Shown here: piece by piece, positions 2,339-21,757 of the stretch | How the letters are laid out: the number at the start of each line of letters is the position of its first letter | Position numbering within the stretch: position 1 is the first letter of the stretch | Source of the DNA: a virus | Reading direction: 5' to 3' (one strand) | Virus record (IMG/VR): IMGVR_UViG_3300027749_000073 | Span: 1 to 64,000 of that record | DNA length: 64,000 nucleotides | The notes under the pieces: model-generated | What the model saw: the letters and a program-made list of their open reading frames with translations, nothing else | The model's database searches: none | Told to the model about the DNA's origin: nothing | Translations under genes and position numbers: made by a program

Positions 2339-5300
2339 TAGATACTCCCGTATGATGAACTAGTAATAAGTTGTTGATCTGCTGAATTTTCAGCAGTAAT
2401 AATATTTGCCGATTTAATTTGGTTTGCAGTAATTCCAGAAATAATTTCAATATCAGTTACTGTTGCTCCATTAATAAAAATTTGGTTGCTAGTTGATTTA
2501 ATTTCAAATAAACTACCAAACGATAGATTAGGTTGGCGAGGTACAATCAAAAAATTTGAAATGTTAGGTGATGTTTTATTCATAACATACGTTGCTAGTT
2601 CTGAAAAATAAAAAGTATCACCAAAATCCCAATTTTCTAAAGCAAAAAATTCGTTAATTGCAGTTATCACTTGAGATTTAATATCGTTATCTGAAATGAC
2701 CTGACCCGAAGTTTTTGTAATTTTAAACACTGCCTGCAATTCTAATGGCGCAGTTGGGCCAAACAAAACTTTATATTGTATAGGATGATATACAACTTCG
2801 TCGGACACTGCTTTAATTAAATTTAAAGACGGTGCCAAGGTGTTGTATAATTCATCAGTACCTGGGGCAAGCGGTTTGTCAATTGCTGCACCAGCAAGCC
2901 ACTGTCTAAATGCAGTATCATAATTCTTTGTAAGAACAAATACATCAATAATGTTACTTGTTCCTGGATCAATTCGAGACTCATAATCTGCACTATGAAT
3001 ATATTGAAATTTAAGATTATCTCGGCCTTGATATACTTTATACATAAGAGAAGGCACTAATTTTCTTGCAGTAGTCAATTGCTTTACTACTGCAGTATCT
3101 GCAAAATAAAAATACTGGCCAATTGTAAAATCTAACAATGTAGCTAATTCGGATTCGGAATTATATATTTTAACAATCTCATTAACGTTATTGATATATC
3201 TAAAATCGTCTTGCCCTAACGAAATTGAGTATTTTTCTTCAACAATATATCGATTTTTAAGAACAATCGTTGAGTTAGTCGGATCAACAATAGTTAAAAA
3301 TAATTCAGGATTATCAACAATACCGTCGTCGTCACTATCTGCAAACGACACTACAATTTTTTTATTATCTACATAACCGTCCAACCCGATATACTCAGAA
3401 TGGATTTCCCATTTATAGTCAACTAAGAATGGCAAAGCACTACCTGCAACTGTATTGATATTTAAAATTTTAATAGAGTCTTTAATTAACGAGTTTGATC
3501 GAGTATCGTATATTTTTTTACTGCTGTCAAAATAAAATCTAAGTTGTTTATCACTTTCAAAAATAAAACGTGTTTCGCGACTAGTTATTTTATAAGATTC
3601 ATTGTCGGTCGTAAACAATAACACCCAACTTGAATCTTGTTGTGTATTTGAAATATCGCCTTGTTTTCCTAAATTAAACGCGCCTTTGCTGTTTAAATTC
3701 ACTTCAAAAATAATTTGCCATTCCTGAACAACTGCACTGTATCGCAGTCCGAAAGGTTTATTTGAAAATATCAAATCAATCATTGTCGAAATAACTGATT
3801 GAGAAAGCGAAGTCGAAAACTTTGGAATAATTTGGCTTACTATTGAAGTAGTCGGAATTGGTGTACTTAGCGTAATAGCACCCATGCCAGATGGTAGCAT
3901 TCCTGTACCCGATGCCGTTCCGTCAGATGCAACTGTTACAACTTCTGCCCATAGATAGGTAACGTACCCAGGTTCTGTCCCAGTTCCTATTACTAATGCA
4001 TTTTTGTTATTAGTATTAAAATACTTACCTTCAGGTGCAACGAATCTAACTAATGCGCCCGGTGAAAAATATTTAAGATCAGTAGCGGTAAATGAACTAA
4101 CTTTGTTAATTTGAAGATCGGACTGGTTACTAATAAATCCAGATGATGACGACGAATCAGTCGAAACAGTAGTCCAAAACACATCTAAACTCAAAGTTAT
4201 TAAATTAATAAATTTTGAATAATAAAAATTTCTCAATTCTATTTTTTTCAAAATATCAATTACTGTATTATAAATCACGGCTTCGATATCAGTCTTGTTA
4301 GCAAACGAAAACTTAACAAATGACTGGTAACTTTCAGTATACAGTACACCATCATCTGCAAATAAATTTGTAGAGCTATATTTTCCGGTAGGGTCAACGA
4401 GGTCAAAATATCGACTAATACCACTTGACGATCTGTTAACTGCTTTTACTTTTAATATTTGTTGATTAACACCCAATGGACTAATGTTATAATCTTCACC
4501 GGTAATCATTCTATTTTGTGTGTAGTACGTTGCAGGAGCATTTGCTTTAATGCTATCATTAGACTCAGTAGTATCTGCATTGCTAACTGAAGTTGCCAAC
4601 GCTAGAGTAACTGTTAATGTTTCGAGCTGGTTAGTTGCCGACATGTATGGAATAGAAATTGAAACATTGCGAATATCTTGCGGTGTAATTTTATAGTTTA
4701 ATCCGTTACTAATTCTATAATACACCCTAAAAGTGCCCAACGGTAAATTACCAAATGTGCCATCGCTAAATGTTAAACTAACTGCGTCACCTGCGCGAGT
4801 AGTAACGCCATATATATTTCTAATGTTTTTGTTTAAACTATTATAGATAATGTTGTTTCCTTCAAAATTAGGAACTTTAGTCCATAATTCACTTTCTGCA
4901 GAATTTTTGTCTAATCGATATAACCATACATCATTGTTGTTAATACCCTGCGATTGTATGTCAACTAATTCACTTGTGCTAGGTTGAGAAATTGTAAACG
5001 ATCCAGTGCTAAGGTTTCCTTGAGTAAAGTTTAAAAAGAAACCAGTAGCCGCGCTACTGTAGCCGCGGCCGTCGTTTTTAAAAATGCAAGCAAGTTTATT
5101 TCCTGCTTTAGGTGGTTCTTCGTAAATATAGTTCTGCCCATTAAACGACGTACTTGTTATTTCAAATGTCGTGTTTCTTCCTGATATTGTTTTTGAAAAC
5201 GCATAAACAGGAACTCCGGAATTTGCGCTTTCAAATCTGTATTGTTCAGAAGGGATGCCATATACAGTCGCTTTATCTACAGGACTACCAAATTGTTGAG

Positions 5301-16507: not shown

Positions 16508-17446
16508 ATGAAGATAAATGAAATAACAAAACAAAGCAATCAGTTAGATGAAGGGATATTAGCAAAGTTGTTTTCTCCTGTAGTAGGAAAGTTAGCAAAA
16601 TTTGTAAAAGGAAAACCTAAAACTGCTCAAGAAAGAAAATTTGCAAGAGATCTCGATACTGTTGCCAGTTATGCATCTAAAAAATTAAGTTCAGCTAAAA
16701 AGTTCATGACGACTATAGGTACGTGGGGTCTAAAAGGATCGATGTTGTATTCTGTATACACACCTCTAGACGACTATCTCAAAAATGTTGAGTACGGCCA
16801 ACAACAAGTTGAACAAGGTAGATGGACCGAAGAACAATTTAAACAATTTGAACAAAGCGAAATGGCTGCGTTAACTGGTAAATGGGCAGAGGCTTTTTTA
16901 GCAAATAAATTAACTAAACTTGGCTTTAAGCATGTGGTTAGACCAGTTCTTACCTTAGGCGGACAGTGGAAAGCACTCTCGGGATTAGTTGACGGCATGA
17001 GCCTTGCAGGACAAGCTGCTATGTTGCATTGGATTGCAAGTCCGGAAGGAGCAAAGCATGTTGCAAATTGGCTTGCTTATCAAATTGACATCCCAGTAAT
17101 AGGAAGTATAAGCGCAGGCGATGTAGCTGGAGCTACAGGTGAACTTGCAAAAAAAGCAATATTAGCTGCAGCAACTAATGCAGCTAAAATGATATCAGAT
17201 AAACCTGCAGACCCTACTGCTACTACAACGTCTCCAGAAAAACCTGCAACTACAGCTGATCCTAATTCAACTACTACTGCTACAGACAAACCAGTTGATC
17301 CAGCAGCAACTGCTAATACACAAACACCTGAAAAGCCAGTAGACAAAAAACCTGCAGTTGATTTTTCAAATGGAGATTGGGAATTTCATCGTCCTGGCTT
17401 TTTAAGAAATACAAAAACTGGTGAAATTAAACGTGGCGAAGCTTAG
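16508..17446 (+). CDS. Putative capsid-targeted internal protein (prohead-protease substrate)
   Basis: The 312-residue protein starts MKINEITKQSNQLDEG. This resembles the short capsid-targeting peptides of T4 internal proteins (Met-Lys start, cleaved after a Glu by gp21), and both INE and LDE fit the (I/L)xE cleavage rule. Residues 20-230 are helical, amphipathic and basic at first, with Ala-rich hydrophobic helices (about 150-230). Residues 230-285 are a Pro/Thr/Asp/Ala low-complexity linker. The last 30 residues (FSNGDWEFHRPGFLRNTKTG) look like a small folded end. A late box precedes it. Whether it is packaged or injected is inference. Its TAG overlaps the stop of the convergent 51-like frame. 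Confidence 0.55.
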   Translation: MKINEITKQSNQLDEGILAKLFSPVVGKLAKFVKGKPKTAQERKFARDLDTVASYASKKLSSAKKFMTTIGTWGLKGSMLYSVYTPLDDYLKNVEYGQQQVEQGRWTEEQFKQFEQSEMAALTGKWAEAFLANKLTKLGFKHVVRPVLTLGGQWKALSGLVDGMSLAGQAAMLHWIASPEGAKHVANWLAYQIDIPVIGSISAGDVAGATGELAKKAILAAATNAAKMISDKPADPTATTTSPEKPATTADPNSTTTATDKPVDPAATANTQTPEKPVDKKPAVDFSNGDWEFHRPGFLRNTKTGEIKRGEA

Positions 17447-17682
17447 AGTAACGGTAATCTAGTTTCTTTAGTTGCTTCTATATTGTCTTTAATCACAGAG
17501 TAAATCATTTCTCTATCCTCAAAACTATAATACATGAGGAGGTCATTCATGCTAATACCTCCTCGCATATACCAACTGATTCTAAATAATTCTAATTTAA
17601 ACTGTTTAATTTCATTATCAACCCTAATTAGATATTCTTTGATCTCGTCGTCGGATAATCTAATTAGGAGTTGACGAAAAAA
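17443..17682 (-). CDS. 51: gp51-like baseplate hub assembly frame, no standard start codon
   Basis: This minus-strand frame is open from just after a TAA (17685-17683) to TAA at 17445-17443. It encodes about 79 residues reading LIRLSDDEIKEYLIRVDNEI, then KLELFRISWYMRGGISMNDL and a YYSFEDREMIYSVIKDNIEA end. The ISWYMRGG and SFEDRE blocks resemble the small gp51-type hub assembly protein encoded after gene 26 in T4-like marine phages. No ATG, GTG or TTG precedes the conserved part; the first ATG is the Met inside WYMRGG. It overlaps the 3' end of gene 26 in the -1 frame, so synthesis as a gene 26 frameshift extension or from an ATT start are the options. Confidence 0.65.
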   Translation of the reverse strand, partial: FFRQLLIRLSDDEIKEYLIRVDNEIKQFKLELFRISWYMRGGISMNDLLMYYSFEDREMIYSVIKDNIEATKETRLPLL

Positions 17683-18491
17683 TTAGATTGATCTAACTCA
17701 ACTGATACTTCAGTTTCAGTTCCACACTCGTCACATTTGATCGGAAATGCAGGTATCGCCCAAATTTTTCTATGCTTTTCGATCTGTGTCTTAATAGCAT
17801 CAATAACTTGCTTATCTGATTCTTCCAACCATTCTTGGATAAATCCTCGTTCAGTTACGATTGTGTCAGGCGTTTCGACACTGTCGATGCTAAGTGCAAA
17901 CGTATCTTTTTGCACCTGGGCAAGATCTTGCCATAGCTGATCGACTAAACGTTGTTGTTCTTCAGTATCTTCGATTTTTGATGCATGCGTTAATTTCTTT
18001 TGTAATTCAAAATGTTTTAAATTAAATTCTGTTGACTGTTTGTAGTTTAACGGCCGCAGTTTAATTACAAGGTTACCTAATACGATTTTATTATCATACT
18101 TTGCAGCATTAAAATGATCGATTACCTTGTTTAAATCTAACTCATAGTCATTTGTTGTCGAACATTTTTGGCAAGTGTGCGATACTCCGAGCGTGTCTCC
18201 AAATGTTGCAATTTTAATTGCAGCAAATATTAAATTTGAATCTAAAACCGATAGCTGCCATGCATCTGTTAATGCAGGAACACAACTTTCAATTACCTTA
18301 ACAATGCTTTCGCCTGTAAGTAACGCATCGGGTGTCTTAACAATAATTTCATCCATGCCAGTCATGCTGTAGACTGGCAGCGAGGTTACTTCGCCGTCGA
18401 TCGAGCCTGGCTTATTATACACACCTTTGCTAGGTAAGCTAATGTAAATCTTTGGTTGTCTAAAATATTGTTGTAATGGATTTCCTGCCAT
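17664..18491 (-). CDS. 26: Baseplate hub subunit gp26
   Basis: The 275-residue protein opens MAGNPLQQYFRQPKIYISLP, has SMTGMDEIIVKTPDALLTGE and KVIESCVP, and matches the gp26 hub protein of T4-like marine phages. Two CxxC pairs, C107/C110 (HTCQKC) and C253/C256 (KCDECG), could form a split zinc ribbon. The middle is helical (about 150-200, Glu/Gln-rich). T4 gp26 is 208 residues. The ATG has a GGAGA ribosome site and a late TATAAATA 30 nt upstream on the minus strand. The last codons contain T TTT TTC, a possible -1 slip site leading into the 51-like frame. Confidence 0.85.
   Translation of the reverse strand: MAGNPLQQYFRQPKIYISLPSKGVYNKPGSIDGEVTSLPVYSMTGMDEIIVKTPDALLTGESIVKVIESCVPALTDAWQLSVLDSNLIFAAIKIATFGDTLGVSHTCQKCSTTNDYELDLNKVIDHFNAAKYDNKIVLGNLVIKLRPLNYKQSTEFNLKHFELQKKLTHASKIEDTEEQQRLVDQLWQDLAQVQKDTFALSIDSVETPDTIVTERGFIQEWLEESDKQVIDAIKTQIEKHRKIWAIPAFPIKCDECGTETEVSVELDQSNFFVNS
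17676..17682 (-). other. Candidate -1 ribosomal frameshift heptamer at the 26/51 junction
   Basis: On the minus strand, gene 26 codons AAT-TTT-TTC present T TTT TTC, which fits the X XXY YYZ slip rule. Slipping back one base re-pairs both tRNAs perfectly in two and nearly in the third position and enters CGT CAA CTC of the 51-like frame. The gp26 stop follows 9 bases after the heptamer. The fusion would be about 349 residues. TCTAATT/AATTAGA flank the site as an inverted repeat. Confidence 0.45.
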
Positions 18492-18553: not shown

Positions 18554-21500
18554 ATGGCAGACATTGATCTTGACAAGCTAGCAACTGTACTCGGCGAAAA
18601 AATTAGAGGTGGGAATTCAACTATGAAATCCGACTCATCTGGTTTAGATCTTTCAACATTAAAAGGCCAATTTACTGAGCTAGTCGGAACTATTGGTCCA
18701 GTTATTACAGGGTTTTCAAACGTAGGCAAAGGTGCAGACGCGTTATCATCGTCTTTACATCAAGCAGGAAATACAGTTGGCGATTCATTAGGCAAAGGAT
18801 TTAACACGTTTGTTGATACACTTGACGACGGTCGGAACAAACTTCGCAATCAATCAGAAACACTTGGTCAAGACTTTTATGGTCTTAATTCAAAAATAGC
18901 AGGTGCTGGCACTACTTTTGAAGACCATTCAAAGTTAATGCAAGAAGCTAACGGATCATTAAATGCAATGGGTCGCAACTCCGAAGCAGTTAATAATTCA
19001 TTCTTAACTCTACAAGGTAAAGTTCAAGAAAATCCTATTGCAGTAGGTCTCAAAGCAACAAACAACATGAATGAAGCACAGCTCAACAAAGCTGCTGTAA
19101 TATATGCAACTACAAATAAATTAAGTTTACGAACACAAGAAGATTATGATAAAGCTGCTGCAGCAGTTGCTGATTTTGCAAGAGAAGTTGACGAAAATGC
19201 TAAATTAACCGGAAAAAGTCGCGATCAAATCCTTGACGAAACTGCAGCACGCAATCAGTCAATCGAAAGTCAACTTTCGATGAACTTACTTTCTGAAGCC
19301 CAGCAAAAAGGATACGCTCAGACCCAAGGCGCATTAGCAGGAATGGGTAAAAGCATCAATGATGCCGCGTTAAATGTAGCATCTGGTACACGATTAAGCG
19401 AAGAATCTAGATTAACCTTGCAATCAATGGGACCTGCAGGCGCTGAATTTCAACGCGCAGTTAAAATGCAAACTAATGCAACTGACGAAGCTAGCAAAAA
19501 AGAAGCAGCAATTGCAATGGAAAAAGCAAAAGCTGATATCGCTGCTTATCAAAGCACTAAGCAATATGCACAAATGGCAATCAGCGGTAACTCTGATCTT
19601 TCTACACAAATGAAAAAAGTTGCCGGCGAAACACAAGCATTTACCAAGCATGCCGAAGGTGCAAAAGCCGATATATCTGCAGAAAAAGGCGAAAAAGTCA
19701 GTACAGCTGATGCACTTGCTATTGCTAAAAAAGAAGCGCAAGCAGCCCAAGAAGGCAAAGCTACTGACATTAAAACAGGAAAAGAAACAGAGCGTCCTGA
19801 ACTAAAAATGCTCGAAAGCTATAATACCGTTGCTGAAAAAGCTAGAATATCAGCTGCTGGTGCAACTGATGCAATTAGCAAGTACAATACAAAACTCGGC
19901 GAACAACCTGAACTTCTTAACAAAGCAACTGCTGCACTAGAAAAAGTATTTGGTACTGCTAACTCGCAAGCAGAAGCATCAAAAAACATTACCGGTGTCG
20001 TCGATAAAGGAACCGAGGCTGCAAAATCACTGTTACCAAGTAATTCTACTGTTATGCAACCGACAGGTAAACAATCGCTGCCTGGGTTAGAAGATCATGT
20101 CCCTGGTACACCGATTGGCCGCGACACTGGGTCATTAGGTAAAACCGGCAAGTTTATGGAAGACTTTGGTAGTGGCACACTTGCTATGTTACACGGCAAA
20201 GAAGGTGTTATTACCGAAGATCAGTTCAACGAACTTACAAAAGCTTTAGATCCTAAAGCAATGACCGATATTATCAAGCAGTATGCACCGGAACCTAAGC
20301 CAGCAGTCCTGCCAGAATTAAAATTACCCGAAATGCCTGGTGTAAATGCTAAAGAATCTAAGCTCGAACCAATGTTTAAGATGCCAGATATCAGCAAATC
20401 TTTTGATACAATCGCTGAAGATTTTAAATCTTCACTACCAAAAGAAATGCCAGATCTCAGCAAAACATTTGACACTGCACTTAGTGGTTTATCAGATATA
20501 TTGCCCTCGGAGTTTCCTGATCTCAGCAAAACATTTGACACTGCACTTAGCGGCTTATCAGATATCTTACCTACAGAATTTCCTGACATAGGTGATTCAT
20601 TTGATTCGGTAATAGATGATTTTTCTGATATATTACCCACGGAGTTTCCTGATCTAAATAAAACATTTGACACTGCACTCAGTGGCTTATCGGATATAAT
20701 GCCTACAGAGTTTCCTGACATAAGCGATTCATTTGATTCAGTAATGGATGGATTTTCTGATATAATACCCACAGAGTTTCCTGATCTAAATAAAACATTT
20801 AGTACAGTTTCTGACAACCTTACTTCGCTGCTGCCAACTGAATTCCCCGATCTAAATAAAACATTTGACACAACACTTAGTGGCTTATCAGATATTTTAC
20901 CGACTGAGTTTCCTGATATCGGAGGAACATTTAGCACTGCACTTAGTGGTTTGTCGGATATTTTACCAACTGAATTCCCTGATCTAAATAAAACATTTGA
21001 CACCGCACTTAGTGGCTTATCAGATATTTTACCAACTGAATTCCCTGATATAAGTGAGTCTTTTGATTCAGTAATGGATGGATTTTCAGATATTTTACCA
21101 ACTGAATTCCCCGATATAAGTGAGTCTTTTGATTCAGTAATGGATGGATTTTCTGATATAATGCCTACAGAGTTTCCTAACATAGGCGAATCATTTGATT
21201 CGGTAATGGGCGATTTTAAATCTATATTACCTGACGAAATGCCTGACATCGGAGAATCATTTGATTCGGTAATAGATAGTTTTTCTGACATAATGCCTAC
21301 AGAGTTTCCGGACTTGGGTGCAACATTTGATTCTGCAGTCAGTGGAATTTCCGACCTGTTCCCTACAGAAATGCCTGATTTAGGAGACACCTTTGATTCT
21401 GCACTACCTGACTTTGAATCTATGTTCCCTAAAGATTTTAGCATTGGCCCAACGTTTGATAATTTGACTTCGGGATTCGACAAAATGACTGCTGGTATTC

Positions 21501-21757
21501 CTAACGTTAAGGACTTAATACCGTCGTTTGAAACAACACCTCAACCTCCAGAGCCGCCTGTTAAGAAAGCAGAGCCTGCGCCTGTTACACCAGTACAACC
21601 GACTGATCAGATTACTCTAAAAGATGTCCATGCGGCATTATTAGACTTAAATAAGACTATGTCAAAGATGGTATCGCACACTGAATCTATTAGTGATTCA
21701 ACTAAAAAAGGTGCAAACTATGCCGCAAAAAGCACAGGCAATAGAGTAATGGCCTAA
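18554..21757 (+). CDS. Putative tail tape-measure / hub protein with 22-residue repeats
   Basis: The 1067-residue protein is mostly helical. Residues 1-500 are Ala/Gln/Lys-rich with coiled-coil character. At about residues 515-560 a GSLGKTGKFMEDFGSGTLAM segment leads to LHGKEGVITEDQF, similar to the (L)LHGxExV motif near the end of many tape-measure proteins. Residues 625-954 are 15 tandem 22-residue repeats. Residues about 995-1020 are a Pro-rich hinge and the last 45 a helix. It sits between the hub gene 26 and portal gene 20. Tail-length ruler or hub rod is the likeliest role; no hydrolase motif is seen. T4 gp29 is the functional counterpart I have in mind, without sequence proof. Confidence 0.6.
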   Translation: MADIDLDKLATVLGEKIRGGNSTMKSDSSGLDLSTLKGQFTELVGTIGPVITGFSNVGKGADALSSSLHQAGNTVGDSLGKGFNTFVDTLDDGRNKLRNQSETLGQDFYGLNSKIAGAGTTFEDHSKLMQEANGSLNAMGRNSEAVNNSFLTLQGKVQENPIAVGLKATNNMNEAQLNKAAVIYATTNKLSLRTQEDYDKAAAAVADFAREVDENAKLTGKSRDQILDETAARNQSIESQLSMNLLSEAQQKGYAQTQGALAGMGKSINDAALNVASGTRLSEESRLTLQSMGPAGAEFQRAVKMQTNATDEASKKEAAIAMEKAKADIAAYQSTKQYAQMAISGNSDLSTQMKKVAGETQAFTKHAEGAKADISAEKGEKVSTADALAIAKKEAQAAQEGKATDIKTGKETERPELKMLESYNTVAEKARISAAGATDAISKYNTKLGEQPELLNKATAALEKVFGTANSQAEASKNITGVVDKGTEAAKSLLPSNSTVMQPTGKQSLPGLEDHVPGTPIGRDTGSLGKTGKFMEDFGSGTLAMLHGKEGVITEDQFNELTKALDPKAMTDIIKQYAPEPKPAVLPELKLPEMPGVNAKESKLEPMFKMPDISKSFDTIAEDFKSSLPKEMPDLSKTFDTALSGLSDILPSEFPDLSKTFDTALSGLSDILPTEFPDIGDSFDSVIDDFSDILPTEFPDLNKTFDTALSGLSDIMPTEFPDISDSFDSVMDGFSDIIPTEFPDLNKTFSTVSDNLTSLLPTEFPDLNKTFDTTLSGLSDILPTEFPDIGGTFSTALSGLSDILPTEFPDLNKTFDTALSGLSDILPTEFPDISESFDSVMDGFSDILPTEFPDISESFDSVMDGFSDIMPTEFPNIGESFDSVMGDFKSILPDEMPDIGESFDSVIDSFSDIMPTEFPDLGATFDSAVSGISDLFPTEMPDLGDTFDSALPDFESMFPKDFSIGPTFDNLTSGFDKMTAGIPNVKDLIPSFETTPQPPEPPVKKAEPAPVTPVQPTDQITLKDVHAALLDLNKTMSKMVSHTESISDSTKKGANYAAKSTGNRVMA
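20426..21415 (+). repeat. 15 tandem 66-bp (22-residue) coding repeats
   Basis: Unit consensus is SDILPTEFPD(L/I)(N/S/G)(K/E)(T/S)FD(T/S)(A/V)(L/M)(S/D)G(L/F). The 990 bp divide exactly into 15 units of 66 bp, flanked by degenerate partial units. Two sub-types alternate: NKTFDTALSGL and SESFDSVMDGF. Some neighbours (units 10 and 11) are nearly identical in DNA, showing recent duplication; units at the two ends are more diverged. Confidence 0.95.

Follow-up and report, generated by a model that had tools for sequence, protein, structure and literature searches.

Vladimirov, Gautam and Davidson are said to have reported in 2022 that frameshifting in tail assembly chaperone (TAC) genes seems to be conserved across several groups of T4-like phages, and that the pair used in T4 itself consists of genes 26 and 51. 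We take the T4-like tail chaperones of that study to be the gp26/gp51 family, in agreement with the alignment made here. This report concerns gene 26 of IMG/VR virus record IMGVR_UViG_3300027749_000073; the window, meaning the whole stretch of DNA that was analysed, comprises positions 1 to 64,000 of the 89.5-kb record. PMC10885494, citing Vladimirov et al. 2022, reports that some T4-like phages do without frameshifting and have two chaperone genes, a short one and a long, fused one; PMC12846349, citing the same study, describes slippery poly-T runs in the TAC-N genes of T4-like phages.

An earlier note, made from the letters of the window alone, had proposed that a −1 frameshift at the end of gene 26 joins it to a gp51-like domain. 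A conserved heptamer, the absence of start codons and a covarying hairpin support that interpretation. Programmed −1 ribosomal frameshifting is by far the best explanation of the locus, and this one gene very probably encodes two TACs. The features concerned are as follows.

17664..18491, minus strand: gene 26, TAC-N-like, the 275-residue product of frame 0 (open reading frame, PF12322, phrog_150, AlphaFold)
17676..17682, minus strand: slippery heptamer T_TTT_TTC, read AAT TTT TTC in frame 0 (sequence of the window and of 78 IMG/VR relatives)
17664..17666, minus strand: TAA stop that closes gene 26 in frame 0 and lies within the stem's 5' arm (sequence, alignment A1)
17443..17676, minus strand: TAC-C-like extension in the −1 frame, 77 codons from CGT after the slip plus the TAA stop at 17445..17443 (open frame without an upstream start)
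17660..17669, minus strand: 5' arm of a conserved 10-bp, putatively stimulatory stem that begins 6 nt past the heptamer (covariation, pairing)
17622..17631, minus strand: 3' arm of the stem, separated from the 5' arm by a 28-nt loop (covariation, pairing, RNAalifold)

Heptamer and −1 frame of gene 26

Gene 26 matches the Pfam family T4_baseplate PF12322 (E 6e-17; 62.5 bits against a curated cut-off of 24.5) and, among the PHROGs, the baseplate hub family phrog_150 (E 1e-21); its AlphaFold model has a pLDDT of 85. It is the only PF12322 gene in the 89.5-kb record, which may be incomplete, and a single copy is as expected if the long form comes from frameshifting. In frame 0 the gene ends AAT TTT TTC GTC AAC TCC TAA, the heptamer (17682..17676) being followed by GTCAACTCC (9 nt) and then by the TAA at 17666..17664. 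The earlier note had placed T TTT TTC in the right phase 9 bases before the stop, which the sequence confirms, and both of its product lengths are correct: 275 residues for gene 26 and 349 for the fusion that a slip at the heptamer would give. The −1 frame is open for 79 codons, from 17682 to the TAA at 17445..17443, and its first ATG, GTG or TTG is codon 39, the Met of WYMRGG; as had been claimed, no start precedes the conserved part and the protein sequence is intact to its stop. That stop (17443-17446 in the window) overlaps the stop of a convergent plus-strand gene, 16508..17446; this close tail-to-tail meeting is a second mark of where the extension ends.

The record contains TTTTTTC 35 times, so the mere presence of the heptamer says little; its conservation exceeds chance. 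A search of IMG/VR with gene 26 as the query gave 80 loci, and our heptamer counts cover 79 contigs, namely the window plus the 78 loci in which the junction is complete; from these a non-redundant set of 51 sequences was drawn (below 90% identity; median 54% identical). The motif xxT TTT TTC stands at the junction in 79/79 contigs and 51/51 non-redundant sequences, and the base after the T6 run is C in every one of the 79. The 79th relative, locus L046, has the heptamer as well; its contig stops inside the extension, and it lies outside the 78 counted. At locus L031, gene 26 (at 3001) is broken after 193 codons, probably by a sequencing or assembly error, and the slippery site and downstream hairpin are intact. 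In the non-redundant set, TTC makes up 14% of Phe codons elsewhere in gene 26 versus 51/51 at the slip site (log10 P about −58, an overestimate, since the calculation assumes independent codon choice and the sequences are related). The slip-site codon columns also stand out in synonymous identity, at 1.00. The junction has, in short, a conserved X_XXY_YYZ heptamer in the phase of frame 0, as is looked for in a −1 frameshift signal.

Past the overlap, the −1 extension has a median dN of 0.33 against a dS of 1.58, and its nucleotide diversity by codon position is 0.33, 0.19 and 0.51; judged from these substitution patterns, it is under purifying selection. Selection is seen on both frames. The Phe-Phe-Arg that opens the extension is invariant across the slip site, and the model of the extension consists of confident helices (pLDDT 88.8). 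Between the previous −1 stop and the WYMRG motif, 51/79 contigs have no start codon, and 72/79 lack any ATG, GTG or TTG from −60 to +36 nt of the heptamer. Two of the checks proposed in the earlier note thus come out in its favour: the heptamer is conserved, and nearly all relatives lack a start codon. Direct searches of the extension against Pfam and PHROGs gave no family match.

A covarying stem downstream of the heptamer

The second element, the stem, came to light through strong synonymous conservation at codons 16-18 past the slip. In alignment A1, 98% of cells are paired and 20 cells have changes on both sides; none of 500 shuffles (0/500) reached the covariation score, and sliding the partners by 1-3 columns left at most 59% paired. 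The innermost pair is the strongest covarying pair in the 150-nt region (GC 34, AU 12, GU 4, UA 1), and RNAalifold recovers the same stem minus one pair. The window's own sequence folds at −20.3 kcal/mol (z −3.86), adding six outer pairs, 17675..17670 with 17622..17617, outside the conserved stem. The earlier note had instead pointed to TCTAATT and AATTAGA flanking the heptamer: this repeat exists in the window, but it is not conserved, and the stem that is conserved pairs 17669..17660 with 17631..17622. At 6 nt, the covarying stem lies within the 5-9 nt downstream of the heptamer at which an RNA structure is expected, and a hairpin at the right spacing is independent support for the frameshift reading. 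As sequence elements go, heptamer and stem together are a textbook −1 frameshift signal.

A comparison of the slip site with Rfam found nothing near any gathering score. A covariance model of the site gave a weak match to 121Q (E 0.02) and no convincing one to any other cultured phage, which indicates that this exact hairpin is specific to the uncultured clade. In P-SSM2, S-CAM3 and PA5oct (z below −3), among others, though not in all phages, the site is followed by a hairpin unrelated in sequence.

From these elements we infer the slipping of ribosomes, its rate and its products, as well as the stimulation of slipping by the stem. Most ribosomes would read AAT TTT TTC GTC AAC TCC TAA and release the 275-residue short form, a TAC-N-like protein equivalent to T4 gp26 and lambda gpG. 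A minority would pause at the hairpin 6 nt past the heptamer, and the Phe-tRNAs in the P and A sites could then re-pair one base back, from TTT TTC to TTT TTT. Translation in the −1 frame would yield the 349-residue long form with its helical C-terminal domain, TAC-NC-like and equivalent to T4 gp51 and lambda gpGT. Present in a fixed ratio, the two forms would coat the tape measure protein, or handle it, while the tail is being assembled.

Cultured relatives and the T4 gene pair

The same layout occurs in cultured relatives, including cyanophages and a pelagiphage: 16 of the 22 surveyed have T_TTT_TTC or its TTT or TTG variants. T_TTT_TTC is found in the five jumbo phages Phosso, Atu_ph07, XaC1, 121Q and PA5oct (hosts Sinorhizobium, Agrobacterium, Xanthomonas, Escherichia and Pseudomonas) and in P-SSM2, S-CAM3, Aeromonas G2, Desulfovibrio 7757, nt-1, Aeh1, XbC2 and Erwinia 47; HTVC008M and phiM7 have T_TTT_TTT, and RHph_I34 has T_TTT_TTG. 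Six relatives (Cygsa01, K362, BX-1, YC, FKP10 and Marshall) keep the −1 extension without a T6 heptamer, and four of these, Cygsa01, K362, BX-1 and YC, have TAATG at the stop. The other two, the Ackermannviridae FKP10 (a Klebsiella phage; L097:2290-2330) and Marshall (a Salmonella phage; L102:2230-2270), have neither the T6 heptamer nor an ATG, GTG or TTG near the stop. Their context at the stop of the gene 26 homologue, ATTTTCATTTAATTTTTGAA, points to slippage at a weaker site (N_ATT_TTC) or to initiation at ATT.

T4 gp26 and T4 gp51 both match PF12322. In our alignment EFFELL, the end of T4 gp26, falls at the slip position, and T4 gp51 runs on into a short C-terminal region. The two are short and long paralogues, and the likeness to lambda G/GT that the earlier note had drawn accordingly holds. 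The hhalign comparisons, which are local alignments, match the extensions of the cyanophages and HTVC008M to the C-terminus of T4 gp51 (97%, E 1e-11) and show the window extension to be homologous to those of the jumbo phages (99.6%, E 3e-24). On balance we favour a reading in which frameshifting at this family-wide site came first and T4 later separated the two chaperones into different genes by duplication; in it, this large uncultured T4-like clade has, as a fixed feature, a covarying hairpin not described previously that stimulates frameshifting and contains the gene 26 stop in its 5' arm.

Putative tape measure neighbour, competing explanations and known systems

Next to gene 26 lies one further feature.

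18554..21757, plus strand: divergent neighbour, putative tape measure protein, 1067 residues, repetitive (PHROG tail length tape measure families)

Its matches to the PHROG tape measure families (E 1e-21 and 1e-6) have optimistic E-values, the protein being repeat-rich, and the counterpart at the same place in an Erwinia phage is annotated 'putative tape measure protein'. Imperfect repeats of about 22 residues (TEFPDLNKTFDTALSGLSDILP) recur many times in the window's protein. A position beside a tape measure gene is what a chaperone pair would have, and with a repeat-rich match we give it moderate weight. A short form and a C-terminally extended long form read from overlapping −1 frames likewise correspond to a TAC-N/TAC-NC pair. 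The chaperone role, which we assign by analogy, is well supported by family, layout and literature.

Several results weigh against frameshift-made chaperones. Foldseek found no similar solved structure for gene 26 in the PDB, and nothing significant for the extension among viral models, where gene 26 matches other baseplate hub proteins. The extensions of the jumbo phages resemble the cyanophage/T4 set only moderately (69%, E 5e-5; reversed control 0.2%), and the window extension compared directly with T4 gp51 gives no match (hhalign 5%). The label 'gp51-like' used in the earlier note is supported by position and by intermediates, without direct similarity, and we keep it in that sense. Eight cultured phages (loci L083, L084, L086, L092, L099, L103, L104 and L105) combine the heptamer with an ATG that overlaps the gene 26 stop in the −1 frame, and in these re-initiation may contribute, making the C-terminal domain also as a separate protein. 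Finally, T4 gp26 and gp51 have traditionally been assigned to the baseplate hub (PMC3004832), which leaves the chaperone role dependent on the 2022 identification and on analogy.

The eight phages bear on the reading in which the extension is a separate small protein, begun independently or by ribosomes that re-initiate close to where gene 26 ends, using a weak or non-standard codon (ATT, for instance). In several cultured relatives the stop does coincide, in the −1 frame, with TAATG, ATGA or TGATG; Cygsa01, K362, BX-1 and YC have TAATG and no T6 heptamer, Marshall and FKP10 have neither, and annotators name a short downstream gene 51 in P-SSM2, S-CAM3, HTVC008M and phiM7. For the window's clade we nevertheless consider this reading very unlikely: 72 of its 79 contigs offer no ATG, GTG or TTG near the junction, the heptamer is invariant, a stem follows at frameshift spacing, and a separately started protein would not need the invariant Phe-Phe-Arg across the slip site. 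RNA polymerase slippage on the T6 run, by which some of the mRNAs would gain a base and encode the fusion, would yield the same protein, and the run is invariant. Yet six T residues are short for transcriptional slippage, and the phase constraint, the C after the run in 79/79 contigs and the stem at 6 nt fit ribosomal slippage better; we give the polymerase only a very slim chance. Single-base indels in T runs are a common assembly error, and a decayed second gene could also leave such a frame, but these candidates, contradicted by purifying selection on the −1 frame and by an arrangement that recurs across many samples (79 contigs) as well as in cultured phages, were rejected as next to impossible.

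It could also be that the frameshift is real and its products are baseplate hub parts rather than tape measure chaperones, as the database names (baseplate hub) and the older T4 literature (PMC3004832) have it. We regard this as unlikely, although less so than the readings above: the short/long layout is like that of G/GT, a tape measure gene adjoins, the available part of PMC3004832 has T4 gp51 absent from the virion, and a published assignment of T4-like tail chaperones is cited in the part of PMC10885494 available. If two chaperones are indeed made by frameshifting, the comparative data would make such a short/long pair widespread in T4-related phages outside the T4 group and provide a well-defined RNA signal, the heptamer with its covarying stem. 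Genome annotations regularly overlook the long form, or enter the extension as a gene of its own under the label 'gp51' or hypothetical, and the result corrects them.

Among known systems, lambda G/GT likewise shifts to the −1 frame shortly before its short chaperone gene ends, and it shares an overlapping −1 open reading frame without a start of its own and an adjoining tape measure gene; it belongs to another sequence family, its heptamer is G_GGA_AAG, unlike the T_TTT_TTC found here, and in our locus the tape measure gene is divergent. In T4, gp26 ends where the unshifted product ends and gp51 has the C-terminal extension, both within PF12322, but the two are separate, divergent genes without a frameshift, and T4 gene 26 overlaps gene 25. 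The TAC locus of Vandenendeviridae and Andersonviridae (PMC12846349) has a conserved poly-T site with an open −1 frame downstream; its motif is GTTTTT, not TTTTTTC, the families are different, and the available part of that source mentions no hairpin. Closest are the T4-like tail chaperones of Vladimirov et al. 2022 (Virology 566:9-15, PMID 34826709), which according to PMC12846349 have poly-T sites for −1 slippage where the short gene ends, whereas the present clade is uncultured. In a literature search of partial coverage, neither this clade nor the covarying stem turned up. The mechanism, known in tail chaperone genes, is not new, and is here unusually clear and conserved; what is new is this uncultured clade and its covarying hairpin.
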